A stretch of DNA of 61,693 bases from Actinomycetota bacterium (GTDB lineage Bacteria > Actinomycetota > Acidimicrobiia > Acidimicrobiales > Ilumatobacteraceae). Below the pieces are notes generated by a model. The model made no database searches and was not told the DNA's origin. It worked only from the letters and a program-made list of their open reading frames with translations. The stretch spans positions 1-61,693 of the forward strand of contig WLIV01000020.1 of assembly GCA_009702045.1 (NCBI GenBank), read 5' to 3'. The position numbers and the translations under genes are program-made. Within the stretch, counting starts at the first letter, position 1, and every line of letters begins with the position of its first letter. Below, one piece after another: positions 5,885 through 45,606 of the stretch.

Positions 5885-5891
5885 CCTCACG

Positions 5892-7354: not shown

Positions 7355-7361
7355 GGCTGCC

Positions 7362-7367
7362 AACCTA
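7362..7367 (-). promoter_or_regulatory. -10 box TAGGTT, leaderless-type, for the GT39 gene at 7354
   Basis: AACCTA on the plus strand reads TAGGTT on the minus strand and lies 7 nt upstream of the ATG at 7354. It supports that start. Confidence 0.5.
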
Positions 7368-7409
7368 GCAATGCCAGCGCGCCAGGGGCCGGGCGAGCAG
7401 ACTGTACGG

Positions 7410-8100: not shown

Positions 8101-9802
<1,702 letters not shown>

Positions 9803-9809
9803 TCTCACA

Positions 9810-27895: not shown

Positions 27896-27918
27896 AGAGC
27901 AGGAAGACAGCGTCGGTA

Positions 27919-27928
27919 AGACTAGGTT
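27919..27928. promoter_or_regulatory. Overlapping divergent -10 boxes sharing CTAG
   Basis: Plus-strand TAGGTT (27923-27928) ends 6 nt before the GTG at 27935. Minus-strand TAGTCT (27919-27924) would serve the GT39 gene with a 23-nt leader. The two boxes share two bases, so RNA polymerase could occupy only one at a time. Confidence 0.4.
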
Positions 27929-27934
27929 GTCGGC

Positions 27935-28540
27935 GTGTCGAGTCACGCCATCGGTGCCCTTCGCGGTTCACTTCGCCGTCCTTCACGCCGCACGGCGATC
28001 TTCGCCGTGGCGAGCGTCGCAGCTGTCGGGTGGTACCTGTGGCCTGCCGTGCAGCACGAGCACAGTGCGGTTGCTGTGATCACCGACGGCTCCTGGTCTG
28101 CAATCACGGATCACGTCACCACCGAGGTTCGGGTGCGTGGCCGTGCTGTCAGCGACCTGGGCACCGTGAGCGACTGGTGCTCCTTGGCTGCGAGTGTGCC
28201 CTCGTTGACGATCGACGCAGACGTCGGCTTCGTGGTGGTTGCCATCGAGACGCGAGGCGACTGTGCCGGCGACCCGGAGACCGCTGCCCTGCGTGCGCTG
28301 AGCGGTCGGTCAATCGCCCCCGTGGTTGTGCTCGACACCGCTGCGTCAGCGCCCTCCGCCGATGTGCGTACCGTTCCGATTGAGCAACTGCTCGGCTCCG
28401 CAGGCACACGAGCAATGTCGTGTCAGTGGTGGGAGGACTGCCCGCAGAGCGGGCGCGTCGATGTGCGCAACGCCGATGGTTCACTCACCGACCTCGGCGC
28501 TGATCGTGTGGCGCGGATGGTGGCCTCGGCCATCGGCTAG
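27935..28540 (+). CDS. Membrane-anchored or secreted protein of unknown function, SGNH-like C-terminus
   Basis: 201 aa. One N-terminal hydrophobic segment (about residues 20-38) follows an Arg-rich stretch, so the rest likely lies outside the membrane. I do not recognise the family. The C-terminus, with CQWWEDCPQSG, a short DG motif, then LTDLGADRVARMVASAI, resembles the end of SGNH domains in AT3 acyltransferases, but the catalytic His is absent (DGSLT where DGxHLT is usual) and no GDS motif is found. It could be a decayed or non-catalytic partner of the AT3-SGNH gene 16 bp away on the other strand. Confidence 0.55.
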   Translation: MSSHAIGALRGSLRRPSRRTAIFAVASVAAVGWYLWPAVQHEHSAVAVITDGSWSAITDHVTTEVRVRGRAVSDLGTVSDWCSLAASVPSLTIDADVGFVVVAIETRGDCAGDPETAALRALSGRSIAPVVVLDTAASAPSADVRTVPIEQLLGSAGTRAMSCQWWEDCPQSGRVDVRNADGSLTDLGADRVARMVASAIG

Positions 28541-28556: not shown

Positions 28557-30521
28557 CTAGGAGCAGGTACCGGCCGGGTTGTTGAAGCGCGGTTCGCTCG
28601 TCCAGGTGCCGCCGGCCCAGTCGGCGGCCGGGGCGGGCGTGACGCCGGCGAACAGGTCGGCGAACTGGTACACCAACCAGTTGCCGAGCAGGGCGCTGCC
28701 CTGCGGGCAGACGTGCACCCCGTCCTTCTTGCGGTCGGGCACGCCGTCGCCGGTGATGTCGTACGCGAACGTGCCCCACAACTGTTGATTGGCGTCGAGT
28801 ACGAACACGTCGTTCGGTCGGGTGCGGTGCAGGTCTTGCGCGAGGCCCAGCATGTAGGCGTAGTCGGTGGTCACCTTGGCCGGGTCGCCGGGAGGCATCG
28901 TCACGAACACCAGCGCTGCGCCGCTGCCGAGGATGGCGTCGGTGTAGGTGGTGAACGCAGCCTGTTGCTCGGCCTCGGGGAAGTCGCTGTCCCAGCCGGA
29001 GAACTGCAGCATCACCACGTCGGGATGCTCGTCGAGTACTGGTTGGATGAAGATCGCGTGGGTGTCGACACCCTTGCGGGGGGTGATGCCGGTGCCGACG
29101 AAGCCGTGGTAGCTGGCGGTCAGACCGGCGGCTTGAAATGCGGCGAGCACACCGGGTGCCGAATCGAACGCCACCGAGTCGCCCTCCCACATCACCGACT
29201 GGATGCTGCGCCTGGGCAACGTGCTGGTGGGGGCGACCGTGGTGTTGCCGGGGACTGTGGTGTCGCCCGGGATCGTGGTGGAGGTGGCGATCGGCGCGGC
29301 GGTCGTCGTCGGCAGCCCGATGGTTCTCGGGTCGAACGAGGCGACCTTGGTGGTGAGCGTCGGGGCGAGGACGACTGTGCCGATGATCGCGACGACCGCC
29401 ACCGCCAGGCCAGCGAGGGCCATGCGGTTCGTTGCCATCCACTGACGACGTCGGATCGGGGACTCGATCAGGTAGTACGAGGCGACGGCGGCGGCGAGCG
29501 AGGCGGACCAGCGGGCTCCGGTGAGTGCCCAGCCGTGCCAGCCCGTGTGCTCACTCGTCAACAGGATGTAGATCGGCCAGTGCCACAGGTACCAGCCGTA
29601 CGAGACTGCTCCGGCGCCGCGCAACGGAGCGATCGTGAGGACACGCTGCAAGGTGGTGGGCCAACTGGTGGCGAGCGTCGCCGCGAGCAGCGCCCCACCG
29701 GCCGAGTGCAGCAGAAAGCCGCCGTGTGCGAGGCCGCTGCTCGTGGCACCGTCGACGGTGAACCACGACCAGGCGATCGCGGCCACGATCGTCCACTGGA
29801 AGAGTTCGAGGGCCACTCGACGGGGGTGAAATCGTGAGCCATCACCGCGACCGAGGCGTTCGATGATCGCTGGCAGCCCGATGAGCGCCAGCAACGCACC
29901 CAGCAGGATCGAGGAGGCGCGGGTGTCGGTGCCCTCATACGCGCGGTTCGGGTTCGCCGGATCGTAGAGCACCCACATCAGTGCACCGGACGTGATGATG
30001 ATTGCGACACACGCGGCCGTCATGGTGAACAGCCAGCGGCGCACGCGAGACACCAGCAGGAACAGCGCCGGCCACACGACGTAGAACTGCTGCTCGACGG
30101 CCAAGCTCCACAGGTGGGTGAGCGGCGAGGGATCGGTGAACAGCGCCCAATAGTCGGCGCCCTGGAAGATCTCGTGCCAGTTGGCGACGTAGAGCAATGC
30201 CGGGATGACGGCGTGCTTGGCCGAGCTGAGCTGCGGGGGGCTGCCCCACAGGTACATCATCGGCACGACCGCCACCAGCAACGCCAGCACGGCTGGCAGC
30301 AGCCGACGGAACCGCCGCTCCCAGAACCGCAGCACGTTCACGGTGCCCGTGCGCCGCACCTCATCGATCAGCAGTCCGGTGATGAGGAAGCCCGAGAGCG
30401 CGAAGAACAGATCGACGCCGAGGAAACCGCCGCTGAGGCGTCCGTCGTGGAAGAAGAGCACGCCGATGACGGCGAGGCCGCGCAACCCGTCGAGGGCGAG
30501 AACCCGGTCGTTCTGTTTCAT
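28557..30521 (-). CDS. AT3-SGNH O-acyltransferase
   Basis: 654 aa. Residues 1 to about 350 form an acyltransferase-3 membrane domain with the R-x10-H motif (Arg14, His25 in LRGLAVIGVLFFH). An SGNH domain follows outside the membrane with the GDS block at Asp448 and DGVH at Asp600/His603. Such proteins take acyl groups across the membrane and transfer them to glycans. It is the last gene of the leftward glycan operon. The ATG at 30521 was chosen because the R-x10-H motif starts directly after it, and the longer frame overlaps the upstream gene. TAAGGT 11 nt upstream could be a weak -10 box. Confidence 0.87.
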   Translation of the reverse strand: MKQNDRVLALDGLRGLAVIGVLFFHDGRLSGGFLGVDLFFALSGFLITGLLIDEVRRTGTVNVLRFWERRFRRLLPAVLALLVAVVPMMYLWGSPPQLSSAKHAVIPALLYVANWHEIFQGADYWALFTDPSPLTHLWSLAVEQQFYVVWPALFLLVSRVRRWLFTMTAACVAIIITSGALMWVLYDPANPNRAYEGTDTRASSILLGALLALIGLPAIIERLGRGDGSRFHPRRVALELFQWTIVAAIAWSWFTVDGATSSGLAHGGFLLHSAGGALLAATLATSWPTTLQRVLTIAPLRGAGAVSYGWYLWHWPIYILLTSEHTGWHGWALTGARWSASLAAAVASYYLIESPIRRRQWMATNRMALAGLAVAVVAIIGTVVLAPTLTTKVASFDPRTIGLPTTTAAPIATSTTIPGDTTVPGNTTVAPTSTLPRRSIQSVMWEGDSVAFDSAPGVLAAFQAAGLTASYHGFVGTGITPRKGVDTHAIFIQPVLDEHPDVVMLQFSGWDSDFPEAEQQAAFTTYTDAILGSGAALVFVTMPPGDPAKVTTDYAYMLGLAQDLHRTRPNDVFVLDANQQLWGTFAYDITGDGVPDRKKDGVHVCPQGSALLGNWLVYQFADLFAGVTPAPAADWAGGTWTSEPRFNNPAGTCS

Positions 30522-30535
30522 ATCGGCGACCGACC

Positions 30536-33043
30536 TTATCCCTTGTCGACCGCCGCGATGGCCTCGGCCAGCAGGGCGGGGAAGTCGCGCGAGAGATCGG
30601 TGGGCCAGTCGTAGGCGAAGTGCGCGCCGTCGGGCCGCAGGCGCAGGTCGGTCTGGCGCGACTGCATCCACGTGGCGAGATCGAGGTTGGTGACCCAGCC
30701 GGGGAACTCGGAGGGCATCGAGCGGATGATGGTGTTCAGCGCGGCGACCCGCTCGGGTTGGCGGCCTTCACGCACATCCGGTGCCACGTCGCGAACGGCG
30801 TCGTTGTTGAACTCGGGGCAGGTGAGCCAGACGATGGTCTGTACGCCGCCAGCGATAAGCACCTGGGCTGCGCGTCGGTATGAGTCGCGGATGACCGCGT
30901 CCATCTCGGGTGTGCCGACGTGGGCGTCCTTCTTGCCGGGTAGATCGTACGACACCAGTTCCCACTGGCACGACAGCACCAGCGCGATGTCGGTGGGGTG
31001 GGAAGCGAGTACCTCCGCCCAGTGGGCAAGGGTGCCGGGGCATCTGCTGTTCTCGATCAGTCCGCACCCCATGATGCTGGCGTCACCGGCGTAGGTGATC
31101 TGTTCGGGGATCTGGCGGATCATCAGGAGTGCGAGCGTGAGCGAGGCGGAATCGCCGAACGTGCCGATGCGACCGGTCTTGGCCGACGGCACCACGTCGG
31201 TCTGAGTGGACGGCGCCGCCTTCGCGGCCTCAATCGCAGTAGCCAACAGTGTCGGCAGCGCTGCCGACAAGGAAGATGCAGACGAGTACTCGAAGTGCAC
31301 GCCGTCGGGCCGGATGGACGCGTCGTCCACCTTCCCGGTCATCCATGTGGCCAGGTCGAGTACGTGCATGTGACCGGGGTGCTCATCGACAACGCTGCGG
31401 ATGATGGTGTTGAGCGCATTCACGCGCTGTGGGTCTCGGGAGGCGACGATCTCCGGCAGGGCCTGATCTCCGGTGACGTTCGACATCGGCGGGCACAGGA
31501 CCCACGACACCTGACCCACACCGGCGGCGAGCAGCTGATCGGCCCGCTCCGTGTACGCGTCGTGGATCGCTCGATCAATCTCGAGCTGGCCGACGATTTG
31601 CTGACCGACACCCGGCACGTCGTGTGCGAGCACATCCCACTGGCACGACATGACCACGGCGAGGTCGACCACGTGTGCGTGGAGGAACGACGACCATTGG
31701 TCGGGGACGTCCTTGCAGCGCGCTGATTCGAGGGAGGTGATGAGGCCACATCCGAGTTTCGATGCGGTGCCCACCAGGTTGATCGTGGTGGAGGGGACCT
31801 GGCGTTCGATGAGCAGTCCCAACGACTTGGCGCTGGAGTCGCCGAACACCGCCACCCGTGGCTGACCGGCGACCGGCTTCACATCCGTCGCTGACGCGTC
31901 GGCCTCCAGCGCCGCCAGGTATTGACGCGCGCGCGGTGGGGTCAACTGTGTGCCAACGATCGTCAGTGCGACGACCATGACGCCCACCCAAACACGCCAC
32001 CGCATCGGGCCGGGGGCACGGCGAATAGGTCGTTCGATGAAGCGCACGATGGGCTGGCCGATGACGATGGCACCGACGAGTGCGATGAGGAACGTCAGGC
32101 CCGCAGGAACTCCATGGCGCTGGAGGATGACGATGATCGGCCAGTGCAACAGGTAGATCGGGTAGCTGAGGTCGCCGAGGAACGTGCTGAGTCGCCAGCC
32201 GAGCACCCCGCCGAGCACCTTGGGTGTGCTGACCGCGCTGTGGATCAGGACTGTGGAGAGCAACGCCACCAGCGGGAGCAGCCCGCGACGGACGAACTCA
32301 TCCCCCGGTCCGACCATGAGGGAGACTGCGATCAGCCCGGCGAGCGTTACCGAGGTGAGTACGTTGCCCCAGCGCAGCGACATGGCCCGCGGGATGAGGC
32401 CCTGGCGGTGGACAATGGCCAGCGCCACGCCCACCAGGATCTCGCCGGCCCGGGTGTCGGTGCCGTAGTACGTGCGGGCCACCGACATACCGGCCACGAG
32501 CGGCAACACGAACGACACCACGATGAGCAGCAGTACCGTGCCGAGCTGGGCGCGCCCGCGCCACAGCCGCGACGTCAGCCACAACAGCAGCGGCAGCACC
32601 AGGTACACCTGCTGCTCGATACCGAGGCTCCAGTAGTGCACCATCATGTCGGCCTGCTGGAACAGGGCCGCATAGCTGGTGCCCTGTTGCAGCTGGAACC
32701 AGTTGCCGAATCCGCCGGCAATGGCCCACAATCGGTGGGCCGGATTCAGGGGTGTGTTCCCGGTGGCGGCTTCGTAGGCGACGATGCCGGCCAGCACGGT
32801 CCATGCCGCTGGCAGGATGCGCCGCCAGCGGCCACCCCAATAGTTGACGATGGCATGGCGGTCGATCGGGCGCGAGAGGAGACGATCGGTGAGCAGGTAG
32901 CCGGAGATGGTGAAGAACACCGACACGCCGATGTAGCCGCCGGTGACGCCGAGGAACTGCGAGTGGAACAACAGCACGAGCAGCACGCTGAACGCGCGCA
33001 GGCCATCGAGGTTGGGGAGTCGTGTGCGCGGTGTTTCAGCCAT
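30536..33043 (-). CDS. AT3 acyltransferase with two tandem SGNH domains
   Basis: 835 aa. The N-terminal AT3 membrane domain has R-x10-H at Arg16/His27 and about ten helices. Two SGNH domains follow. Copy 1 has the GDS block at Asp402 and DGVH at Asp580/His583. Copy 2 has Asp631 and DGAH at Asp805/His808. Both share CQW, an ALNTIIRS helix, LDLATWM and RPDGxHF, so this is an internal duplication, and both look catalytically complete. Usual AT3-SGNH proteins have one such domain. The ATG at 33043 overlaps the end of the AftD-like gene by 8 bp, indicating coupling. The acceptor is probably the glycan made by this operon. Confidence 0.88.
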   Translation of the reverse strand: MAETPRTRLPNLDGLRAFSVLLVLLFHSQFLGVTGGYIGVSVFFTISGYLLTDRLLSRPIDRHAIVNYWGGRWRRILPAAWTVLAGIVAYEAATGNTPLNPAHRLWAIAGGFGNWFQLQQGTSYAALFQQADMMVHYWSLGIEQQVYLVLPLLLWLTSRLWRGRAQLGTVLLLIVVSFVLPLVAGMSVARTYYGTDTRAGEILVGVALAIVHRQGLIPRAMSLRWGNVLTSVTLAGLIAVSLMVGPGDEFVRRGLLPLVALLSTVLIHSAVSTPKVLGGVLGWRLSTFLGDLSYPIYLLHWPIIVILQRHGVPAGLTFLIALVGAIVIGQPIVRFIERPIRRAPGPMRWRVWVGVMVVALTIVGTQLTPPRARQYLAALEADASATDVKPVAGQPRVAVFGDSSAKSLGLLIERQVPSTTINLVGTASKLGCGLITSLESARCKDVPDQWSSFLHAHVVDLAVVMSCQWDVLAHDVPGVGQQIVGQLEIDRAIHDAYTERADQLLAAGVGQVSWVLCPPMSNVTGDQALPEIVASRDPQRVNALNTIIRSVVDEHPGHMHVLDLATWMTGKVDDASIRPDGVHFEYSSASSLSAALPTLLATAIEAAKAAPSTQTDVVPSAKTGRIGTFGDSASLTLALLMIRQIPEQITYAGDASIMGCGLIENSRCPGTLAHWAEVLASHPTDIALVLSCQWELVSYDLPGKKDAHVGTPEMDAVIRDSYRRAAQVLIAGGVQTIVWLTCPEFNNDAVRDVAPDVREGRQPERVAALNTIIRSMPSEFPGWVTNLDLATWMQSRQTDLRLRPDGAHFAYDWPTDLSRDFPALLAEAIAAVDKG

Positions 33044-36000
33044 CGATCGGGTCGTCCGGCCATTCGTGGGGGTCCTCATCCGCGGCGAGCGTCACGAGAA
33101 GCAGGAAGATGAGGAACAGGCCGGCCTTGTGGGTGTGCTCGAAGAAGCTGGGCCAGCCGCCACCTGCGGCGAAGCGGTTGGCGTGTTGCCGATACACGAT
33201 GTAGGCGGCGATACCGCTGATCCCCACCAGCGCGGCAACACCGGCCAGGCGGGGCCGCCGCACGATGATGATGGCGGCGGCGATCACGAGTGCGCCGAGC
33301 GCCCACCAGAGACTGACGAACGCGAGGCACGCTCCCACGAGCAGCGCAGCTCCTCCGGCAGAGCGACGCCTCGTGGTGGTGTGCCAGGGCGCGACGAGTG
33401 CCGGCAGTTGGTACGGCGATGGGTCGGCGGCGGGTACAGGTCGGCCGGCCCGCAGTCGTCGTCGCCCGAGCGGCCAGAGGGCGAGGCCCAGGCAGCACAC
33501 TGTCGCCACCGCCGACAACCCGAGGGCGAGGTTGAGCTTCGTCTGAGGCGTGAAGTGGATCGAGACCTGTGTGGGCTGGTCGCTCGGCGCCAACTGCCAG
33601 CCGTTGGCGCCGCCGCTGACGGGCCTGGGCGCCGAGAGCGTGCGGCCATCGACACTGGCCTCCCAGCCCTTGTTGTAGCCCTCACCGAAGATCAGCCAAC
33701 AACCCTTCGGGCAGGGCGCGACGGTGACGGTGGCAGATGTGGCGCCGAAGGAGTCGAGGTGGACATCAACGCTGCCGGTGGAGACGGCTGCCGGTTCGGC
33801 GGCCGTGGGGATCAGCGTCGCTCCATCGACGTCGATGCCAGTAACCACTCCGGGTGCGCTGAGCAGATGATGCTCACCGGGTGCGAGGCGCAGCGTGCTG
33901 CCCGCACATGGCGCGGCGGTGATGGCCTCGCCGGCGCTGAGTGCTGCGGCGTCCACCTGCAACGGCACCGGCGCGCCGTCGAGCGTGAGCAGATCGCTGC
34001 GGCAGGTGTTGGGTGCCACCGTGGTTGCTGCGATGGGCAGACCGGTGATCTCGCTGATGGCCGCCGGGAGCAAGGCGAACTGCCCATACCTTCGCTCGGT
34101 GGTGGTGCGCTCCGCCACCGCCGTGATCTCGACAGTGAGTGAGTCTCCCGAGGCTGCCGGGAACGAGATTGTGCTGGCGCCAGCGGTATCTGCTGCGGGA
34201 ACTGCGACCGTCGTGTCGTGCCCGTCGATACTGACCCTGACCTCGGTGATGGGGGAGAGCTGCACATCATTCGGTTGCATCATCTCGAACGACGAGACGG
34301 TGGAGCCTGGTTGTAGCGGCACAGTGATGGAGCTACCGACAGCGATGTTGAACGGAGTGACCCAACGAGTTGAGCTGTCGCCGTCGAACGCTGCCGAGGC
34401 GCGTGCGCTGGGAACACCAGCGAGCCGACGGTTCGACGTCGCTGTGTGGACCTCGCCTGCCAGCGCGTCGAGCGCCGAGTCGGCAGCGCGTGGGGAGAGC
34501 CGCAAGGTGACGCTGAAACGACCGTCGATGGCGGTGGTGAGTGAGAGCGCTCGAGCCAGCGTGGGCTCGGGGTCGCTGCGCCAGCGGTCGGTGGCACGGA
34601 CGCGTTCGCGATGGAGCACGAGTGCGGTCGGCGAACCGGCCGGCGCCTTGGTGAGCGCTTGTGTCGGCGGGCGGACCCACTCCTGCGCCACGGGTCCGAT
34701 CTCGGCGAAGCCGACCCACCACTCGCCGTACTGCGGCGCGCCGGGTCGGTCAGCAACCTCGGTGACGGTGATCGCGACCGACGTCCCGAGGGGAATCGCC
34801 ACCGTCTGTCCCGCGCCGGTCAACGATTTCGGACCGAGCTCGACTCGCTGGTGGTGGCCATCGACAGCGATATCGACGGCGGTGATCTGGCGCTTCAGTT
34901 GTGCGCCCTGCAGTTGCAGTAGGTGGAGTTCGCCGGTGTTCGCTCCGGTGAGGGTGAACGTCTCGCCGATGGGGTTCCAGTGCTGACCGAAACGCCACCC
35001 AGTCGAGGTGTCGCCGTCAACCGCCATCGCGGCACGGTCTTCAGGAAGATACGCGAACGGTTCGCCGTACGCCGTGGCCTGCACCGTGAGGCCGTGATCG
35101 AGCGTGGCGATGGTCTCACCCGCCGGGTCGGCGTTCTCGAAGATCGGCAGCCGTTGCGCGCTGGCGGTGGTGTGTACCCCGTCCTGCGATGGTCCGCCTG
35201 ACTCAGTCATGCCAAGGGTGTCCTGCGAACCGCGCCATTGCTGTTCGCGATCGCGGTTCGAGTCGGTGATCAGCACCACCGTTCCAGATGGCAGTGATGC
35301 CCAGTCGGCGGCGGTGAGGTCGTTGGCGTAACGGACGAGTTCGTCGCCGTGCAACAGGCCGGCGGCAGCAGAATCGACGACGCCGTCACCGCTGCCATCG
35401 ACGACCACGATGCGGGTCTGTGCTCGCACGATCGACACGGGATCCTCGACCGGCACCAGCATGACCGGAGCAATCGGTGTGCCGATCCGTGGATCGGAGA
35501 CGGACTGTTCGTCGATCATCGGGACGGCGGGCCGGTTGACGGTCGGCGTGCCGTAGGCGATGGGGACGCCGAGGCCGGTGGCGGGCGTGCGGAAGAGATC
35601 GGCGAAGACTTCTGGCCGTGGCGTGCGGAAACGGTCGAACGCCAGGTCATTGGTGACCCAGATCTGATCAGCCGCCAGCAGACGGGCAACGGGAGCGATC
35701 GAGGCAGGGTCGAGGGAATCAGTTTGCACTCGGTTGTCGAGTGCGTAGAGCAGGTCCATCAACTGGCTGCTGCCGAGGGGCAGCAGGTCGCGGGTGAGCA
35801 GTGCCTTTTGGGTGATACCGGCCACGGGTTGATCGACAGTGAAACCCCAGCGGAAGGCGCCGAACTCAGCTCCCGGAAGCTGCAGCACCCTCGATGTGGT
35901 GGTGCTGGCGTCGAGTGCTGCTGCCGCGTCCATCCATGCGGCTGGCGGACGTTGGTCGCGTTGTAACGCTGGGTCGACCAGGTGGGCTGTCCACAGCGAT

Positions 36001-37223: not shown

Positions 37224-37236
37224 CGCAGGAGAGAGT

Positions 37237-40200
37237 CTAAACATCGTCATGTTCGCGGACAGCGTCGCCAGCGGATCCGCTGATCGGCTCATCATCACCG
37301 GTGAAGATCGTGACCACCATCAACAACAGCAGGAACATCCCGGCCCGGTGAATGCGTTCGAAGTGGCTCGGCCACCCGCCGTCGCCGGCATAGCGCTGGT
37401 AGACCTCGACCGCGGTGATGAGGACACCGAGCGCCCCAATGCCGAGCACCGATGCCACGCCGGCCATACGCAGGCGACGGCCGGTGAGCAGGACGGCGGC
37501 GACGAGCAGTGCACCGACGGCCCACCACAGGCTGACGAATGCGGCCGTGGCGACGACGAGCACGGCTGCGGCACTGCGTGCTGCGCGAGGAGTGCTGCGG
37601 TGCCATGGGGCCACGAATCTGGCTGTCTGTTCGTGTTCGGCGGCGCGTGTCGGCGTGTCGGTGGGGCGGCGGCGGCGAAGCAGCGGTACGACGAGCAGTG
37701 CGATGCACATGGCGGTCGCCACGGCGGACACGCCGAGCGCCAGATTCAGCGTGCGTTGCGGCTGGAACCGGATCTGTACGTGTGTCGGTGCGGTGGAGGC
37801 CGGGAGGAACCAACCGTTGGCGCCGCCGCTGACCGGCTGGGACTGCGGCAACGTCGTGCCGTCCGCGGTGGCGGTCCAGCCCGAACTCTGACCCTGTCCG
37901 AAGATCAGCCAACAACCGCGAACGCACGGCTCGACCGTGAGCGTTGCCGACGTGTCGTCCTGGGCGTCGATGTGGACGGTTGCGGTGGGCGCGCTGGCCG
38001 TCGGTGCCTGGGCGCTCGTCGGCACCACGGAGAGCGAATTGAGATCAATGCCGGTGGCGGATCCGGCCGTGCTAAGGAAGCGGTGTTCGCCAGGAGCGAG
38101 TGAGAGCGCAGCGCCGTCGCACAGCGTGGCCTTCGCGGTCTCGCCGGTGGCGAGGGCTGCCGTGTCGACCTGCAACGGCACGGGCCTGCCGTCGATGGTG
38201 AGCAGATCAGTGCGGCACGCGGCCGACGATGTGCCCTGCTGTTGTGCGAGTGGCAGACCGCTGATCTCACTGATGGCCACGGGAAGGCTGGTGAGGTCGC
38301 CGTAGCGCCGGTCGCGTGTGGTTTCCCGGCGTACTCCGGTGACCTCCAACTGCAGGTGATCACCGGTGGCGGCTGGGAACGTGATGGTACTGAATCCATC
38401 GGCGCCCGCCGGTGGCACCTCGACATCGGCAGACATGGGGCCCACGTGGACGGTGACCGACGTGATGGTGGAGAGATCGGGGGATGTCGGCTGCTGCAGT
38501 CTCAGCGATGAGACGTTGCTATCGGGGAGCAACGGCACGCTGATGACGCTGCCGGCCGCTGTGTCGAATGGTGAGGTCCAGCGCGTGCTCGGGTCGCCGT
38601 CGAATGCCCTGCTGGCACGAGCATCGGCCACACCGGTGAGGCGCCGGTTCGAGGTGGGCGCGTCGGTCAGCGCGCTCAGCCCGTCGAGTGAGGAGTCGCC
38701 CGCACGATCGGAACGATGCAGCGACACAGTGAGCGTGCCGTCGATTGGGTGCGAGAGCGAGACCACCCGGGCCAACACCGGCTCGGGATCGCTGCGCCAG
38801 CGGTTGGTCGAGCGGACCCACTCGCGGGTGAACACAAGGGCCACCGGGGTGTTGGCGGTGGCGAACGCGAGCGCCGTGGTGGGTGGACGCACCCATTCCT
38901 GGGCCGTGGGACCGACCTCGGCGAAGCCGACCCACGCTTGGCCGGTGGCGGGTGCGCCAGGTCGTGGCCCGACACCAGCGATGGTGATGTGCACCTCGGA
39001 ACCCGACGGGATCGTGACGTCTTGACCTGTGCCGCTGAGCGACGATGCATCCAGCACTGCGTGTTGGCGGTGGCCGTCGACAGCGATGTCGACCGCCGTG
39101 ATCATCATCGTCAGGTCGGGGGCTTGCGCTTGCAGCAGGTGCAATGTCGTGGTGGCGGCCCCGGCGATCGTCAGCGTCTCGCCCACGGGTTGCCACATCA
39201 CTCGCCACGACGTGGCTGGATTCCCGTCGACGGCCATGGCCGCGCGGTACTCGGGCTGGTACGCATACGGCTCGCCGTAGGCGGTGGCCTGCACGGTGAG
39301 GCCGTGGTCGAGCGTGGCCACAGTCTGTGTGGCTGCGGTGCCATTGCCGGTGAAGATCGGGAGCCGCTGTGCGCTCTCGTCGATGCGGACACCGTCGTTG
39401 CCTGAACCGCCGCTCTCGGTCATGCCGATGGTGTCTTGCGAGCCGCGCCACTGTGCGGCGCGGTCGCGATTCGAATCGGTGACCACGACGACAGTGCCGG
39501 TTGGCAGGGCCGCCCAGTCGGCAGCGGTGAGGTCGTTGACGTAGCGCAGCACCTCGTCACCCAGCAGCACACCTGCGGCGGAGGCATCGACGACACCGTC
39601 GCCGCTGCCGTCGAGCACCACCACGCGACCGCCGACGCGGATGAGTTGCGGCGCGTCCTTCACCGGTACCAGTAGCACCGGTGGTCGTGCGCTTCCCACG
39701 GTGGGGTCGGACAACGACTGCTCGTCGATCATCGGGATGTCGGGTCGGTTGACGGTCGGGGTGCCGTAGGCAACTGCTGCGCCGAGGCCGGTACGCGGTG
39801 CGATGAACAGGTCGGCGAACGCTTCCGGTCGTGGTGTGCGGAAGCGGTCGAAGGACAGGTCGTTCGCGATCCACAACTGGTTGACGGCTAGGTAGCGGGC
39901 GACAGGCGCGATGGAGTCCGATTGCAGCGAGCCGTTCTGCACTCGGTTGTCGAGCGCATACAGCAGGTCCATCAGTTGCGGGCTGCCCAGCGGCAGCAGA
40001 TCTCGCGTCACCACCGGTACCGATGTCAGCCCCGACAGCGGCTGGTCGACGGTGTAGCCCCAGCGGAACGCCCCGAACTCCGCACCGGGAATCTGCAGCA
40101 CACGCGAACCTGTTGAACTGCGGTCGAGTGCGGCAGCTGCCTCGCGCCACGCAGCCGGAGGTGCCTGGTCGCGCGAGAGCGCTGGATCGACGAGATCGGC

Positions 40201-41436
40201 GGTCCACAACGACGGCAGGTTGAGCGCCACCAGGCCCACCACAACCAGCGCCGCAACCCTGCCGTGCCGTGGGCGATGACGGTGTATCGCCACCACGAAC
40301 GCAGCGACACCGAACGCCATCCCCAGCGACAGCAGTGGCAACGCACGTGTGCTGCTGCGCAGCGCCAGTCCGAGGCCGGTGTCGCGGATGAGCGATGGCA
40401 ACGGTGCTGGGTCTGCGTACGGGTGCACGCCCACCGACAGCACGAGCCCGGTGAGGACGAGCGCAATCGCGTACCGGCGATGGCGGAAGCGTGTGAGCGC
40501 CAGACCTGCGAGGCAGAGCAGCGCGAGGGCGAACCCGACCACGATCAGCCACGCAGACTCCTGATATGGGATCGACGACGTAGTGGCTGCGGCATACGGG
40601 TCGCGGATGTAGAACAGCCAATACCCAAGGCTGCGCACTACCTCGGTGCTGGATGCCGTGCCGGACACCGCTTGCAAGGTCTCGCTGTAGGCCAGTACGT
40701 CGGCGCCGTAGCGGCCTTGGATCGAGAGCATCACGATCCACCACACCGACACCGGCACTGCGAGGACGGCGATCCGCGCGGTGGCGGACACGACCTGTCG
40801 GCGTGTGACCCGACGGGCATGCCATTCGAACAGCACCCACAGCATGGGTCCGGGGAGGATGGTGGCGAAGGCCGTGGCGTTCACCGATGAGACGGTGAGG
40901 ACCACAAGCGCCAGCAGCGCCGGGTAGCGCCAACCCCCGCGCTGCACCGAGCGCATGGTGAGCAATGTGAGCCAGCCCAACGCTGCCCACGGCAGCAACA
41001 TGACGGACGTGCGGCTGATGTACGGCAGTACGTAGGGCGACAACTGGTACACCAGGGCCGAGATGGCGGCGCCGAGCAGCGGCAGGCGCAGCGCGCGAGC
41101 GAGAGCGAAGACACCGAGGCCGCCCAGGAACAAGATGGTGGCGATCCAGAGTCGGTGCGCTACCCAGTCGGGCGCGCCGACCTGCTCGCACATCCAGAAC
41201 CATGGGCCCGAGGGCCACAGGTAGGCGATCATCTGGTGGGGCACCCACCCGCCGTACAGGCTGGGATCCCAGGTCTTACTTGACGTGCTGAGCAGGCGGC
41301 CCGGGTCGAGGTACAGGTAGAGCTTGGTGTCACTCGGCATTCGGCCGGGCGACGACAGCAGTGCCGGGATGTACGCGATCGCCGCAAGGAGCGCGGCGAA
41401 CGGTCGCGGTGTTCTCACGACTGCCCGGACGTTCAC
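37237..41436 (-). CDS. AftD-like alpha-(1->3)-arabinofuranosyltransferase, copy 2
   Basis: 1399 aa, a close paralogue of the next gene over its whole length. The GT-C part has PSDTKLYLYLDPGRLL, GGWVPHQMIAYLWP and the same long run around the RTSVMLLPWA segment. Two discoidin-like signatures are AMAVDGNPATSWR near 735 and RAFDGDPSTRWT near 945. C-terminal helices end with DDV. Similarity is strongest in the first 400 residues and weaker in the outer domains, so the copies may use the same donor but bind different acceptors. GTG at 41436 lies 5 nt after the GT2 stop; GTG 41418 is an alternative. Confidence 0.88.
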   Translation of the reverse strand: MNVRAVVRTPRPFAALLAAIAYIPALLSSPGRMPSDTKLYLYLDPGRLLSTSSKTWDPSLYGGWVPHQMIAYLWPSGPWFWMCEQVGAPDWVAHRLWIATILFLGGLGVFALARALRLPLLGAAISALVYQLSPYVLPYISRTSVMLLPWAALGWLTLLTMRSVQRGGWRYPALLALVVLTVSSVNATAFATILPGPMLWVLFEWHARRVTRRQVVSATARIAVLAVPVSVWWIVMLSIQGRYGADVLAYSETLQAVSGTASSTEVVRSLGYWLFYIRDPYAAATTSSIPYQESAWLIVVGFALALLCLAGLALTRFRHRRYAIALVLTGLVLSVGVHPYADPAPLPSLIRDTGLGLALRSSTRALPLLSLGMAFGVAAFVVAIHRHRPRHGRVAALVVVGLVALNLPSLWTADLVDPALSRDQAPPAAWREAAAALDRSSTGSRVLQIPGAEFGAFRWGYTVDQPLSGLTSVPVVTRDLLPLGSPQLMDLLYALDNRVQNGSLQSDSIAPVARYLAVNQLWIANDLSFDRFRTPRPEAFADLFIAPRTGLGAAVAYGTPTVNRPDIPMIDEQSLSDPTVGSARPPVLLVPVKDAPQLIRVGGRVVVLDGSGDGVVDASAAGVLLGDEVLRYVNDLTAADWAALPTGTVVVVTDSNRDRAAQWRGSQDTIGMTESGGSGNDGVRIDESAQRLPIFTGNGTAATQTVATLDHGLTVQATAYGEPYAYQPEYRAAMAVDGNPATSWRVMWQPVGETLTIAGAATTTLHLLQAQAPDLTMMITAVDIAVDGHRQHAVLDASSLSGTGQDVTIPSGSEVHITIAGVGPRPGAPATGQAWVGFAEVGPTAQEWVRPPTTALAFATANTPVALVFTREWVRSTNRWRSDPEPVLARVVSLSHPIDGTLTVSLHRSDRAGDSSLDGLSALTDAPTSNRRLTGVADARASRAFDGDPSTRWTSPFDTAAGSVISVPLLPDSNVSSLRLQQPTSPDLSTITSVTVHVGPMSADVEVPPAGADGFSTITFPAATGDHLQLEVTGVRRETTRDRRYGDLTSLPVAISEISGLPLAQQQGTSSAACRTDLLTIDGRPVPLQVDTAALATGETAKATLCDGAALSLAPGEHRFLSTAGSATGIDLNSLSVVPTSAQAPTASAPTATVHIDAQDDTSATLTVEPCVRGCWLIFGQGQSSGWTATADGTTLPQSQPVSGGANGWFLPASTAPTHVQIRFQPQRTLNLALGVSAVATAMCIALLVVPLLRRRRPTDTPTRAAEHEQTARFVAPWHRSTPRAARSAAAVLVVATAAFVSLWWAVGALLVAAVLLTGRRLRMAGVASVLGIGALGVLITAVEVYQRYAGDGGWPSHFERIHRAGMFLLLLMVVTIFTGDDEPISGSAGDAVREHDDV

Positions 41437-41441
41437 GGACG

Positions 41442-42167
41442 TCAGTGGCGTCGGTTGAAGCGTTCGCCGACCGGGCTGTACTTGACGATGCACACGATCG
41501 CCCGCACACCGTCGCGCCAGCCGATCTTCTTACCTTCGTCGTAGGTGCGGCCGTCGTAGGAGATGCCGACCTCGTAGATGCGCAGCTTCAGGCGGGCGAG
41601 CTTGGCGGTGATCTCGGGTTCGAACCCGAATCGGTTCTCCTCGATCGTGATGCCTTGGATGATCTCGCGGCGGAACACCTTGTAGCAGGTCTCCATGTCG
41701 GTGAGGTTGAGGTCGGTGAACATGTTGGACGCGAGCGTCAGCAACTTGTTGCCGACCGAGTGCCAGAAGTAGAGCACCCGGTGCGGGCGACTGCCGGCGA
41801 ACCGTGAGCCGAACACCACATCGGCGACGTCCGTCTCCAGCGGTTCCAGCAGCACTGGGTACTCCTCGGGGGAGTACTCCAGATCGGCGTCTTGGACGAC
41901 GACGTATTCAGCAGTTGCATGGCTGAAACCGGTGCGCAACGCTGCGCCCTTTCCCATGTTCTGCGGCTGCAGCACCACCTTCACCCGACTGTCGGTGACC
42001 GTGGCCAGCAGTTCGCGCGAACGGTCCTTGGAACCGTCGTCCACCACCACCACCTGGGCAACCCAGGGGGACACGAGCACGCGCTCAAGCAGCGTGATGA
42101 TGGTGGCTTCTTCGTTGTAGCACGGCACCACGACCGTGAGGCATTTGCGTGGCTTGCGTTGCGTCAT
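41442..42167 (-). CDS. GT2 polyprenyl-phosphate sugar synthase-like glycosyltransferase
   Basis: 241 aa. Motifs are VVVPCYNEEATIITLL, VVVDDGSKDRS, LQPQNMGKGAALRTGF and QDADLEYSPEEYP, the set found in DPM1/DPG synthase-like GT2 proteins. The C-terminal ISYDGRTYDEGKKIGWRDG segment is typical of the same group. It probably charges polyprenyl phosphate with a hexose to supply the GT-C enzymes of this operon. The ATG at 42167 overlaps the previous stop (ATGA). The longer in-frame reading overlaps that gene and has no homology. Confidence 0.85.
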   Translation of the reverse strand: MTQRKPRKCLTVVVPCYNEEATIITLLERVLVSPWVAQVVVVDDGSKDRSRELLATVTDSRVKVVLQPQNMGKGAALRTGFSHATAEYVVVQDADLEYSPEEYPVLLEPLETDVADVVFGSRFAGSRPHRVLYFWHSVGNKLLTLASNMFTDLNLTDMETCYKVFRREIIQGITIEENRFGFEPEITAKLARLKLRIYEVGISYDGRTYDEGKKIGWRDGVRAIVCIVKYSPVGERFNRRH

Positions 42168-43462
42168 AAGTTCGTTGATGTTAGCCGGGTCGACTCGTCG
42201 TCGCCCGGTGTGGTGCGGCCTTCTCGTAGCCACCCGGTCAGTGCCGCTGCCGCCAAGAGCACCAGTGATGGCTCGAGTGGGGCACGCAATCGGTGGCTTC
42301 CGTAGAACGCCACCGTGGTGGCGAACACGATTGCCACCGGCACGAGCACGACCGCCCGATCGCGGCGGCGCAGGCGCCGTACACCCCAGCACGCCAGCGG
42401 AGCCAGGATCCACCAACAGACGATGCCGGCCCACACGGCGGTCCGTTGCTGATCCTCGCCGACGTCACCGTGCACCACGTCGTGGAGGCCGTACAGGTCG
42501 AGCGCCCGGGCGACGCGCGCGACCACGATGCCCGGCAACTGCGACACGTGCTGACGCGCGTACGACAGGGCCCACCGACGCTGTTGCGCCGACCGCACCG
42601 AGTCGTCACCCGACGGCTCTGGGCCGCCGAGCACGCAGAACAGCGACCACCCGCCCTTGTCGCCGCCGGAGAAGACATCATCGCAGTAGGAGCCGAGCAG
42701 TGTGGTCCCATCGTTGGTGGTGAGCAGCACCGGCGAATCGAAGCGAGCAACGTTGACCACCGTCCAGGGCAGGAGCACCGCCGCAGTGACCAACGCCATC
42801 GCTGCGGCACGCAGCACGGCGGCACGCGAGCGCGAGTGCCACACGACAGCGACGAGCCCGGCAACGGCCAACAAACCGAGTTCGCTGCGAGTCAACGCGG
42901 CCAGTCCGGCGAGCGCTCCGACCAGCGCGGCGCGTCGCCACGTGGGTCGGTCGAGCAGATGCAGCACGGCCAACATCCAGCCCACGATGAGCACCATCGC
43001 GATCGATTCGGCCATCACCAGCCCGTCGTGTGTCCACAGGTTTGGGTACACCGCGGCGATCGCCGCCGCGATGAGGCCCATAGTGGGCCCGCCGATACGT
43101 CGGCCGAGCAGCCCGATGAGGGCCACGAGTGCGATACCGAACAACGTGGTGGTCAGCCGTTGTCCCTGTACTGGATCGGACAGGAAGCTGAGTGGGGCCA
43201 TCAACACCGCCGCCAGCGGAGGGTGCTCGGCCGTAGGGCCTCCGGTAAGGATCGAGTGGAAGAAGCGTCCGTGGCGCAACCCGGTGGCCGTAAAGCTGTA
43301 CCACAAGGAGTCGTTCATCCTCAGCGGACGCCCCCACCGATACGCCAGCACCACTGAGCGCAGCAGCGCGCCAGCGATGACGATCGCGGTCAGGCGACTG
43401 CGAAAGCTGCGCAGGCTCCACCAGGTGGCGTTCCTGGCAGCGTCGCCATCGAGCGTTCTCAA
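42164..43462 (-). CDS. GT39-like membrane glycosyltransferase with TTG start
   Basis: 432 aa. GT-C protein with about nine helices. First-loop features are PLRMNDSLWYSFTATGLRHG and PTAEHPPLAAVLM. Later come AAVYPNLWTHDGLVMAESIA and ALTRSELGLL, similar to the GT39 gene at 25715-27895. I place the start at TTG 43462, where TTGA overlaps the TGA stop of the upstream gene. The longer frame (from 43792) would overlap that gene by 330 bp with a low-complexity Arg/Ala sequence. Donor is probably a polyprenyl-phosphate sugar made by the adjacent GT2. Confidence 0.75.
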   Translation of the reverse strand: MRTLDGDAARNATWWSLRSFRSRLTAIVIAGALLRSVVLAYRWGRPLRMNDSLWYSFTATGLRHGRFFHSILTGGPTAEHPPLAAVLMAPLSFLSDPVQGQRLTTTLFGIALVALIGLLGRRIGGPTMGLIAAAIAAVYPNLWTHDGLVMAESIAMVLIVGWMLAVLHLLDRPTWRRAALVGALAGLAALTRSELGLLAVAGLVAVVWHSRSRAAVLRAAAMALVTAAVLLPWTVVNVARFDSPVLLTTNDGTTLLGSYCDDVFSGGDKGGWSLFCVLGGPEPSGDDSVRSAQQRRWALSYARQHVSQLPGIVVARVARALDLYGLHDVVHGDVGEDQQRTAVWAGIVCWWILAPLACWGVRRLRRRDRAVVLVPVAIVFATTVAFYGSHRLRAPLEPSLVLLAAAALTGWLREGRTTPGDDESTRLTSTNL

Positions 43463-44688
43463 GGTACGGCTGCGTTGACGCCGTAGAGCGCCGTGAGGGT
43501 GACGAGGCCGACCGCACAGCAGGACAGCAGCCACGGCCACCAGTGCGGCTTCTCGCGCTCGAACCACGCTGCGGCCGGTATCAGCAGTGGGAAGGCGGTG
43601 AAGATGAAGCGAGGCCGAGCGGTGACGGTCTCGGGCAGCAGCATCAACGCCACCACCACGATGCTGTACGCCGTCATCATCAACGGCAGTCGGTAGCGCC
43701 GCAGCATCCAGAACAGCACCACCAGCGTCAGCACGGATACTGCCGTGATCGTGTTGGTCGGCGAGGTCATCGGGCGGATGAATGCCTGCCACGTGCGGCG
43801 CAAGGCGGTGCTCCCGAAACTGGTGCCTTCGCCCCAGGCCTCAGACTGCACTCGGAACCACACCATGGTCTCGTGCGTGTGTCGGCCGAGCCACAACTGG
43901 AATCCGAGGAAGCCCAATGGTGCGATCGCCGGCGCTGCCAATGCTCGCCACTCGCGGTTGGTGCGGATGGCGATCCATGCCGCGACGGCGCATGCGGCAA
44001 CGAGCGCAACTCCGTTGGGGCGCGTGGCGGTTCCCAGGGCGGCCACCAGACCTGCGGTCCACCACTGGTGACGCATCAGCAACAAGAAGGTGGCAGCTGC
44101 CAAGACCAGCAGCAGCGCCTCTGTGTACGCGAAGGACAGCACAAAACTGCCGGGGAACAGCGCCGTGAGGATCATCGCCCGTTGGGCGACCTGAACATCG
44201 AAGAGTGACCGTGCGAGTAGTCCCACCAGCCACACGACAAGGGCACCCAGAACGAAGTTGACGAACAGTGACGCGAGGTCGGCACCACCGGGGAGGATCG
44301 TGTCGAACGCCTTGACCAAGATCGGGTAGGTGGGGAAGAAGGCGGCGCGGGCATCAGGGACGTCGTAGGTGACCTTGGCCTGCACGATTGCGGGGTAGCC
44401 GTGTTTGACGATGCGGAGATACCACACGCCGTCCCAGCCGGTGAGCACATCGATCATCGGCCGCAGTGCGTTCTTCGGGATCGGTTTGCCGGCGTAGTAG
44501 GGCGACGCCCAACGGGCCCACGGGAACTTCTCGACGCGCAGGTTCTCGTCGGCCCGAAGCCCAGCGGCGACGATGGCGGCGCCGACCGCTACGCACACGC
44601 GTGAGAACAGGTAGACGAGGCCCGCTGTGGTGAGCGCTCGCCGCCATACGGCAGGAGGTGCAGGCTGGGGTTCGATCAGGTCGGTCAT
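43459..44688 (-). CDS. PIG-V-like GT-C mannosyltransferase-type membrane protein
   Basis: 409 aa with about ten hydrophobic segments. The first loop has GWDGVWYLRIVKHGYP and then FFPTYPILVKAF, the pattern of PIG-V-type (Mannosyl_trans2) GT-C proteins. ALFPGSFVLSFAYTEALLLVL and TATRPNGVALVAAC are further family features. Eukaryotic relatives add mannose from a lipid-phosphate donor. Here the sugar is unknown. It starts at ATG 44688, 45 bp after the alkA-like gene, and its stop is joined to the next start as TTGA. Confidence 0.78.
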   Translation of the reverse strand: MTDLIEPQPAPPAVWRRALTTAGLVYLFSRVCVAVGAAIVAAGLRADENLRVEKFPWARWASPYYAGKPIPKNALRPMIDVLTGWDGVWYLRIVKHGYPAIVQAKVTYDVPDARAAFFPTYPILVKAFDTILPGGADLASLFVNFVLGALVVWLVGLLARSLFDVQVAQRAMILTALFPGSFVLSFAYTEALLLVLAAATFLLLMRHQWWTAGLVAALGTATRPNGVALVAACAVAAWIAIRTNREWRALAAPAIAPLGFLGFQLWLGRHTHETMVWFRVQSEAWGEGTSFGSTALRRTWQAFIRPMTSPTNTITAVSVLTLVVLFWMLRRYRLPLMMTAYSIVVVALMLLPETVTARPRFIFTAFPLLIPAAAWFEREKPHWWPWLLSCCAVGLVTLTALYGVNAAVP

Positions 44689-44733
44689 GGCACAGTGCGC
44701 GTTGCGAGCGCGCTGGACGTTACACGCACGTGG

Positions 44734-45606
44734 TCACCACCGCTGGATTGGCAGTACTCGCTGTCGTGGGCCGAACTTGGGGGCAGCGGCGCCGTTGAGC
44801 AGGAGCAGCGCCACAGCCCGCCCGCGCTGGGATGCATATGGCGCCAGCAGATCCATCATCTCCTTGTCGGTGCCACGAGCCCGTCCGGTCAGTGCGTGCA
44901 CCACCACGTTCTTCAGATGGAAGTCGCCGACCGCCACGGCGTCGGGGTTGCCGAACGCTGTGCGCAACACGCACCCGATGGTCCATTCGCCCACACCAGG
45001 GAGCAGCGCCAACTTCTCCGCCGCATCGCCGGGCAGCAGCGTCGACCATTCGGCCAGGTGTGTGGCTCGTCGGCCGATCTCTTTCAGGATGGCGGCCCGC
45101 TTGCCCTCGATGCCCAATGGGTGGAACCACCAGGTGGGGCGGCTGGCCAGGTCGTCGGGTTCTGGCGGCAGCGTCAGTTCGCCGGGGCCAGGCGCAGGAC
45201 GTCCGAGTTCGCGGACCAGACGGTGCCACTGCGACGTCGCCTCACCGGCGGTGATTCGTTGGCCCAGCACGGTGGGGAGCAGTTCGTGGTACAGCGTGCC
45301 ACTGGCGCCGAACCGCACATCGGGGTACCGGCGCTGGGCTGCGAGTAACGCCGGATGACCCTCGGTGAACACGTGCCCCGGGTCGAGTGCTCCCGTCATC
45401 GCTGGCACGTGCGCCAACAGCCACTCGCCGCCCGGACCCCACGCCTCGGCGCGCAGACTGCCGCCGCTCCAGTCAAGGTGCAGCGTGCCGGCGCCATCGG
45501 GGGTCAGCGTCGCTCGCCAAAACTCGCTGGGAGTCACCCGCGTGGTGGGATCGCCGGCTCCGTACCGGTAGATCTGCAGCGGATTGCCTGGTCCACCCGA
45601 ACGCAC
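44734..45606 (-). CDS. DNA-3-methyladenine glycosylase/HhH-GPD protein (AlkA-like)
   Basis: 290 aa. The HhH-GPD core is LLPGVGEWTIGCVLRTAFG followed by AVAVGDFHLKN, with the catalytic Asp228. The preceding TLYHELLPTVLGQRITAGEA segment is also typical. It excises alkylated bases in base excision repair. The N-terminal 100 residues form the AlkA-type beta domain. It appears to be the first gene of the leftward operon, although it has no clear link to glycan synthesis. GTG 45606 has a TAGAAT box 6 nt upstream. Confidence 0.87.
   Translation of the reverse strand: MRSGGPGNPLQIYRYGAGDPTTRVTPSEFWRATLTPDGAGTLHLDWSGGSLRAEAWGPGGEWLLAHVPAMTGALDPGHVFTEGHPALLAAQRRYPDVRFGASGTLYHELLPTVLGQRITAGEATSQWHRLVRELGRPAPGPGELTLPPEPDDLASRPTWWFHPLGIEGKRAAILKEIGRRATHLAEWSTLLPGDAAEKLALLPGVGEWTIGCVLRTAFGNPDAVAVGDFHLKNVVVHALTGRARGTDKEMMDLLAPYASQRGRAVALLLLNGAAAPKFGPRQRVLPIQRW

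Follow-up and report, generated by a model that had tools for sequence, protein, structure and literature searches.

Tandem AftD genes near decaprenylphosphoryl-arabinose genes suggest that Acidimicrobiia make an acylated arabinofuranosyl envelope glycan without Emb

Results

An AftD gene run and a donor gene group share one contig

The window, by which we mean the whole stretch of DNA analysed, is a 61,693-nucleotide contig (WLIV01000020.1; C13 in our numbering) of a 3.65-Mb genome from the actinobacterial class Acidimicrobiia that is 99% complete, with a GC content of about 66%. It carries a run of eight minus-strand genes in which two tandem relatives of the mycobacterial arabinosyltransferase AftD stand together with other glycosyltransferase (GT) and acyltransferase genes. 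AftD transfers arabinofuranose from decaprenylphosphoryl-D-arabinose (DPA) in an alpha-1,3 linkage, and a group of DPA genes lies 6.6 kb past the end of the run, outside the part of the window that an earlier note on this DNA had described. Judged from the genes, their families, packing and linkage and from profile matches that are absent, we consider it fairly probable that with these loci Acidimicrobiia make an acylated arabinofuranosyl envelope glycan independently of Emb. The host is an actinobacterium distant from the mycobacteria, yet its DPA genes are of the mycobacterial cell-wall kind and lie near the glycan run. To our knowledge, DPA and AftD have been studied almost only in the mycobacterial and corynebacterial wall.

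The run was confirmed by reading the junction sequences, which agree with the earlier description of eight minus-strand genes, from 45606 to 28557, with gaps of at most 45 bp and several overlaps. In run order, the junctions are a 45-bp gap, a 4-bp overlap (TTGA) between the PIG-V-like and GT39-like genes, a 4-bp overlap (ATGA) between the GT39-like and GT2 genes, gaps of 5 and 13 bp, an 8-bp overlap, and a gap of 14 bp. Gene families were assigned by Pfam and NCBIfam profile scans, and these bear out the earlier view that GT-C glycosyltransferases and AT3 acyltransferases share one run. Starts were refined from the sequence, the listed open reading frames (ORFs) beginning too early for several genes; the run's GT2, for example, shrinks from the 330 residues of the ORF list to 241 (Table 1). 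The run is flanked by a plus-strand ORF (27935-28540) past its end and a divergent plus-strand AT3 gene at its head. A scan for consensus promoters and terminators found one promoter-like and five terminator-like sites, both at the level of shuffled sequence, which is a weak test at about 66% GC.

Both AftD proteins are full-length relatives of mycobacterial AftD

As the earlier note had proposed, the run encodes two AftD proteins, each of which exceeds the cut-offs for the N-terminal GT-C domain and for the carbohydrate-binding module of AftD (Table 1); they are the only PF11847 matches of the genome at E 0.001. When AftD1 alone was searched against the PDB at E 0.001, solved AftD chains were the only matches, and a 20-row AftD profile aligned with the solved mycobacterial AftD 6w98 at 342.8 bits over positions 4-1320. 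Asp36 of the DTK/DSK motif, which follows the first hydrophobic segment, is invariant across all 20 rows and lines up with the corresponding Asp of 6w98; we take this residue, in the first external loop, to be catalytic. Five rows from loci L052, L054, and L056 were left out of this alignment.

AftD1 and AftD2 are 64% identical overall, 73% over AftD1 residues 1-650, and 56% over the rest. A specialisation of the paralogues through divergent acceptor binding was considered and rejected, as the identity ratio of 0.77 lies within the 0.64-0.80 of comparable pairs, namely those of 190 alignment pairs with at least 60% identity in the GT-C part. In a FastTree tree of 48 rows, AftD1 paired with the first copy of the relative G009 and then with the copy of G010, and AftD2 paired with the second copy of G009; the duplication is therefore older than the split between the window's genome and G009. 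Tandem pairs also occur in G009, G018, G020, and G030. A deeper paralogue clade holds the second copies of G016, G018, G022, G029, and G030, so that the tandem pairs of G018 and G030 each include a member of it. The tree, which is unrooted, leaves out the second copy of G020 and the first AftD of L056, and its rows L006b, L057b, and L075 are fragments; the two rows from family f58, one of them a 378-residue fragment, did not form a group, and long branches come together.

DPA pathway genes lie at 17.5-22 kb

The donor gene group encodes a HAD phosphatase, a UbiA-type phosphoribosyltransferase, a Methyltransf_24 protein, DprE1, and DprE2. UbiA, DprE1, and DprE2 exceed NCBIfam equivalog cut-offs, and UbiA stays below those of two sister models (269.8 vs 474 and 191.3 vs 234 bits). 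In the PDB, UbiA matched 8j8j (E 1.7e-61), DprE1 matched DprE1 structures, and DprE2 matched chain C of 21gq (E 2.3e-60). DprE1 retains His132 and Lys418 (M. tuberculosis numbering), both presumably of functional importance, and has Ala at the position of Cys387, which we take to be the covalent site of benzothiazinone drugs. Twenty regions around DprE1 or UbiA were fetched; 16 have HAD, UbiA, and DprE1 in this order on one strand, and in 15 of these the methyltransferase gene separates UbiA from DprE1. Of the exceptions, the contig of G027 stops inside UbiA, and G038, G041, and G048, from other families, are arranged differently. The most direct physical link between DPA genes and AftD is seen in G022, where UbiA, the methyltransferase, DprE1, DprE2, and AftD form a same-strand series and the AftD match stands about 22 bp from that of DprE2.

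Published work describes a UbiA-type enzyme that forms polyprenyl-phosphoryl-ribose-5-phosphate, a phosphatase that then takes off the phosphate (Rv3807c in mycobacteria, a HAD-family module in Citrobacter), epimerisation by DprE1/E2 in mycobacteria, and transfer by GT-C enzymes (PMC11127046). The window offers two candidates for the 5-phosphate phosphatase, the HAD protein adjoining UbiA and a PAP2_3 protein at 5003-5890. Donor synthesis had been placed inside the run by the earlier note; the donor for both AftD proteins is very probably made instead by the HAD-UbiA-methyltransferase-DprE1-DprE2 genes at 17.5-22 kb and not by the run's GT2. Relatives of the Methyltransf_24 gene were seen near GT4 and AftD genes in G038, G048, and G053 (L060, L063, and L072), all from other families, which hints at methylation of the same glycan; G048 and G053 have no strong DprE1.

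No match to Emb, AftA, or UDP-galactopyranose mutase

The window's genome has no match to Emb (PF04602), AftA (PF12250), or UDP-galactopyranose mutase (GLF, PF03275), models that all find matches in Corynebacterium glutamicum. We compared 61 genomes (the relatives panel), comprising the window's own genome (G000) and 36 others of its family, 37 in all, and 24 from other families of the order. Emb was matched in two of the 61 and GLF in six, and AftA exceeded its cut-off in none, with one weak match in G051. Emb and GLF are each missing from 43 of the panel's 45 AftD-bearing genomes, any AftA match is missing from 44, and in 42 all three are missing. In a second panel of 396 genomes from across the phylum, Emb exceeded its cut-off in 15, of which 14 belong to family f58. 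Without Emb, AftA, or GLF matches, the product would not be mycobacterial arabinogalactan: the acceptor would differ from the mycobacterial galactan, and the chain would be built without Emb. One genome of the window's family, G016 (1.8 Mb; contigs C74, C105, and C56), is the only one of the 61 to combine AftD, a strong DprE1, GLF, and an Emb match.

AftD and DprE1 occur together in the window's family

Taking at least 240 bits, a threshold of our own, as a strong DprE1 match (the G020 copy carries four stops) and AftD1 as query for AftD, we found each in 45 of the 61 genomes, both in 40, AftD only in five, DprE1 only in five, and neither in 11. Within the window's family, 31 genomes have AftD and a strong DprE1, none has AftD alone, one has DprE1 alone, and five, of 1.5-2.0 Mb, have neither. 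The two genes are 0.8-29 kb apart in all 19 family genomes in which they share a contig, with varying genes between them. In the other 12 they are on different contigs, many of them short; the AftD contig of G031 is 52 kb, and its split is not plainly explained.

In the phylum panel, AftD was detected in 59 genomes at E 0.001 (57 over the cut-off) and DprE1 in 62 at 1e-60. DprE1 accompanies AftD in 41 of the 59 genomes, 27 of which show no Emb above the cut-off. The window's order contributes 29 genomes, 21 with AftD; 20 of these 21 have DprE1 and none has Emb. DprE1 alone is no predictor of AftD, because six of the eight genomes of the order without AftD have it too.

A stable PIG-V-like-AftD core with modular neighbours

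Conservation of the eight-gene order, which the earlier note had put forward for checking in related genomes, did not hold: the loci of 28 of the 30 other AftD-bearing genomes of the family were compared (G011 and G028 left out), and none shows all eight genes. Neighbours were recognised by their resemblance to window proteins (tblastn, E 1e-6), and G006, G009, and G010, whose contigs stop short of any PIG-V-like gene, and G021 and G033, where no neighbour was recognised, were kept in the denominator. The closest order is that of G009, GT39-like-GT2-AftD1-AftD2, after which its 6.6-kb contig ends.

In 19 of the 28 loci, the first gene recognised upstream of AftD is a PIG-V-like one, on the same strand and no more than 125 bp away; other genes separate the two in G007, G024, and G034, and in G025 it lies 4.8 kb off. 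The AlkA-like, PIG-V-like, and AftD genes are found in this order on one strand in 13 loci, in three of which other genes separate the last two, and an ABC-ATPase gene stands upstream of the AlkA-like gene in 11 of the 13. Nine loci have GT2 and GT39-like genes no more than 165 bp apart (G002, G004, G005, G006, G008, G009, G012, G013, and G029), as a divergent pair in all of these except G009 and G029. In six loci (G007, G010, G014, G016, G025, and G029), AftD has an AT3 gene directly after it on its own strand. By these counts, the family keeps a PIG-V-like-AftD core and reshuffles the GT2, GT39-like, and acyltransferase genes around it as modules.

Proposed pathway and alternative explanations

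In the proposed pathway, the run would provide the half that works at the outer face of the membrane. UbiA would join phosphoribosyl pyrophosphate and polyprenyl phosphate to polyprenyl-phosphoryl-ribose-5-phosphate, the HAD phosphatase would presumably take off the 5-phosphate, and DprE1/DprE2 would invert C2 to give polyprenyl-phosphoryl-D-arabinofuranose. This lipid-linked sugar would be flipped across the membrane, where AftD1 and AftD2 would move arabinofuranose to the acceptor glycan. The run's GT2 may make a second lipid-linked sugar for the GT39-like or the PIG-V-like GT-C enzyme, and the AT3 proteins would O-acylate the product. The sugar, acceptor, linkage type, and acyl group are predicted ones, as are the single transcript of the run and the donors of the small GT-C enzymes.

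We further suggest, tentatively and with less than even confidence, that arabinan in Acidimicrobiia is made without Emb and AftA by AftD (here in tandem), which together with PIG-V/GT87-like and other GT-C partners would prime and extend the polymer on a non-galactan acceptor, with dedicated AT3 proteins acylating it. If this is true, it would represent a second layout, older or parallel, of the DPA-dependent arabinan pathway outside the Mycobacteriales.

Several observations weigh against an arabinofuranosyl product. No flippase or acceptor was identified for the pathway. The co-occurrence tests ignore kinship, and genomes of one family are not independent. Among the 24 genomes outside the family, AftD and a strong DprE1 are both present in nine, AftD alone in five, DprE1 alone in four, and neither in six (p = 0.22), which gives no support to a general law of co-occurrence in the order; where the two genes share a contig there, in two genomes, they are 366 and 81 kb apart. 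Across the phylum, 18 of the 59 AftD-bearing genomes lack DprE1, and from this and the weak link outside the family it follows that the AftD family need not always use DPA. An alternative explanation is that the AftD relatives transfer another pentofuranose or sugar, such as ribofuranose taken from polyprenyl-phosphoryl-ribose or the sugar that the run's GT2 makes, and that the DPA genes serve the GT-C enzyme encoded at 21962-23806. In 10 of the 20 fetched regions, this GT-C gene is the first one recognised after DprE2 and lies on the opposite strand, and the five AftD-bearing panel genomes (of 45) without a strong DprE1 also fit this explanation. So does G048, a genome from another family (100% complete, 2% contamination) with AftD and UbiA 0.8 kb apart and no DprE1-level match; its UbiA exceeds the phosphoribosyltransferase cut-off, the AftD/UbiA locus (L094, 1-6302) is without DprE1 or DprE2, and a ribofuranose version of the locus is possible there. 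Undecaprenyl-phosphoryl-ribofuranose is the donor of a Citrobacter GT-C enzyme (PMC11127046), and the whole-cell sugars given for one Acidimicrobiia species, from another family, are rhamnose, ribose, mannose, and galactose, arabinose not being mentioned in the paper (PMC12263773). The presence of DprE1 in all 31 AftD-bearing genomes of the window's family and the DprE2-AftD adjacency in G022 speak against a different sugar, and we regard it as unlikely. As a side observation, a short-chain dehydrogenase gene near the G048 locus (9397-10350) matches generic families of that kind.

Two further alternatives concern the coherence of the run and the nature of its product. The eight genes may be no functional unit, with the AlkA-like gene and perhaps others as bystanders held in place by slow rearrangement and only the PIG-V-like-AftD pair of importance. 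The full order is lacking in all 28 relatives, and the recurrent ABC-ATPase gene upstream of the AlkA-like gene is what slow rearrangement would leave; the overlapping starts among the PIG-V-like, GT39-like, and GT2 genes argue the other way, and the recurrence of AT3, GT2, and GT39-like genes beside AftD in other arrangements suggests a shared role. That the genes form no unit we think somewhat unlikely. It is rather doubtful, too, that the product is a lipoarabinomannan-like lipoglycan and not a wall-bound or capsular arabinan. The missing GLF match, and with it probably a missing galactan acceptor, would suit a lipoglycan, as would the GT4, GT2, and GT39-like genes between the two loci, which we take to be gene kinds of mannan pathways; nothing, however, was assigned at the level of PimA or PimB, and the GT4 protein scores best with the MshA model, reaching 93 bits where the cut-off is 462.5.

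Other genes of the window

Table 1. Features of the run, the donor gene group, and the genes around them
Feature	Position	Strand	Evidence
HAD phosphatase, candidate DPA 5-phosphate phosphatase	17476-18168	+	PF12710 118.2 bits
UbiA decaprenyl-phosphate phosphoribosyltransferase	18021-19031 (start approximate; profile match from 18150)	+	NF008978 344.7 vs 207
Methyltransf_24 protein	19028-19780 (start approximate)	+	PF13578 68.6 bits vs 26.3
DprE1, decaprenylphosphoryl-ribose oxidase	19842-21218	+	NF053785 577.3 bits vs 500
DprE2, partner reductase	21224-21976	+	NF053786 299 bits vs 250
GT-C membrane glycosyltransferase converging on DprE2	21962-23806	-	fold of predicted model
GT4 glycosyltransferase	23858-25027	+	PF00534 118.9 bits
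Second GT2, polyprenyl-phosphate-sugar synthase-like	25039-25782	+	PF00535 105.7 bits
Second GT39-like GT-C glycosyltransferase	25715-27946	-	PF13231 55.2 bits vs 26.1
AT3 acyltransferase c, 654 aa, C-terminal DUF459/SGNH-like	28557-30521	-	PF01757 90.2 bits
AT3-SGNH acyltransferase b, 835 aa	30536-33043	-	PF01757 90.7 bits; SGNH 37.8 vs 27
AftD2, tandem paralogue of AftD1, 1395 aa	33036-37223	-	PF11847 (N-terminal GT-C_AftD) 269.3 bits vs 26; CBM_AftD (PF24607) 29.5 vs 27
AftD1, 1399 aa	37237-41436	-	PF11847 290 bits vs 26; CBM_AftD (PF24607) 30.5 vs 27
GT2 polyprenyl-phosphate-sugar synthase-like, 241 aa	41442-42167	-	PF00535 118.8 bits
GT39-like (PMT_2) GT-C membrane glycosyltransferase, 432 aa	42164-43462	-	PF13231 38.3 bits vs 26.1
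PIG-V/GT87-like GT-C membrane glycosyltransferase	43459-44688	-	PF04188 25.4 bits vs 22.4
AlkA-like HhH DNA glycosylase-type protein, first gene of the run	44734-45606	-	weak profile matches; conserved hairpin and Asp
Divergent AT3 acyltransferase, SGNH-like C-terminus	~45700-47661	+	PF01757 102.9 bits; SGNH 25.3, under 27

The PIG-V-like protein is marginal for both families, its GT87 scores being 24.7 and 26.6 against 25; GT87 is the family that holds AftC and PimE. No family exceeded its cut-off in the profile scans of the protein at 21962-23806, and a PDB sequence search gave nothing useful for three GT-C proteins. AlphaFold models of the PIG-V-like protein (pLDDT 80) and of the 21962-23806 protein (pLDDT 81) match GT-C folds at Z up to 21.4 and 19.8, respectively, among them oligosaccharyltransferases, PMT, ArnT, ALG, Emb, AftA, AftB, AftD, and PimE. 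The best arabinosyltransferase scores, 15.7 and 15.9, are below these top rows, and Foldseek superposed the PIG-V-like model poorly (among the first 20 rows, TM was 0.39-0.47 except for one of 0.49). Assignment of a donor by structure was rejected, as the models match many GT-C enzymes alike; these predicted models indicate a GT-C fold and not a donor. The best PDB matches of the run's GT2 are undecaprenyl-phosphate 4-deoxy-4-formamido-L-arabinose transferase and dolichol monophosphate mannose synthase. Among the window ORFs scanned is MurJ (3377-4999), presumably a member of the MATE superfamily and the only such protein among them.

The SucT model is the only NCBIfam match of both AT3 genes of the run, at 60.8 bits for AT3 b and 86.2 for AT3 c, under the cut-off of 1275. 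Scans restricted to the last 258 and the last 434 residues of AT3 b did not recover the second SGNH domain that the earlier note had assigned to it. The C-terminus of AT3 c matches DUF459 at 28.8 bits against 27.2 when that part is scanned alone and at 24 on the whole protein. For the divergent AT3 gene, the position of the domain and the frame put the start probably near 45700, because the ORF would otherwise extend 250 bp into the AlkA-like gene. A further AT3-SGNH acyltransferase gene (59034-61172; SGNH 110.4 bits) adjoins a phosphoribosyltransferase-domain gene.

The first gene of the run had been taken for a DNA repair glycosylase. Its product keeps the marks of the superfamily, none of the 12 aligned rows departing from the GxGxW hairpin or the Asp of GD(F/Y)H, but it falls short of the cut-offs for HhH-GPD (18.3 vs 26.2 bits) and AlkA (22 vs 229). 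It has no hydrophobic segment of membrane length. The gene looks like one for a working HhH-type protein in an inherited position, and no glycan role is supported for it.

Positions 1-159 of the window hold an 18-bp tandem repeat of 8.8 copies with 93% matches, inside an ORF that is open at the contig end. The ORFs at 5906-7447 (513 aa) and 27935-28540 (201 aa) have no Pfam match, and seven proteins scanned against a defence-system library gave none.

Discussion

Our findings suggest that a family of Acidimicrobiia combines the DPA pathway and AftD with an absence of Emb, AftA, and GLF matches, which makes the stand-alone role of AftD testable in environmental organisms, and they predict arabinofuranose in the envelopes of a poorly known actinobacterial class. 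We found no description of arabinan synthesis in Acidimicrobiia by title and the start of abstracts, a search outside of which most subscription papers lie.

Compared with mycobacterial AftD (PDB 6w98, 6wbx), the proteins of the window are alike in a near full-length alignment, the GT-C domain, the carbohydrate-binding module, and the Asp of the DTK motif. They differ in their PF11847 scores, 290 and 269 bits vs 894-954 in 14 genomes of the Emb-bearing family f58, in being a tandem duplicate, and in standing in a genome without Emb, AftA, and GLF matches. The window resembles the mycobacterial and corynebacterial DPA pathway (Rv3806c, DprE1, and DprE2) in its adjoining UbiA, DprE1, and DprE2 genes, which score over their equivalog cut-offs. 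The window departs from it in the additional Methyltransf_24 gene, in the Ala at the Cys387 position of DprE1, and in the HAD protein beside UbiA, where mycobacteria have Rv3807c, which has been called unrelated to HAD phosphatases (PMC11127046).

SucT of mycobacteria is an acyltransferase of cell envelope polysaccharides (PMC10503756); it shares the AT3 membrane domain with the acyltransferases of the run, whose scores nevertheless lie far below the cut-off of the SucT model. Finally, the three-component pentofuranose systems of Citrobacter youngae O1 and O2 (GT136), as presented in PMC11127046, resemble the window in a HAD-type phosphatase (a candidate one in the window) that goes with a UbiA-type phosphoribosyltransferase, in a lipid-linked pentofuranose (predicted for the window), and in a GT-C enzyme with a carbohydrate-binding module. 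Unlike them, the window has DprE1/DprE2 in place of a single short-chain dehydrogenase-type epimerase, no assigned MATE flippase, and a transferase of the AftD type.

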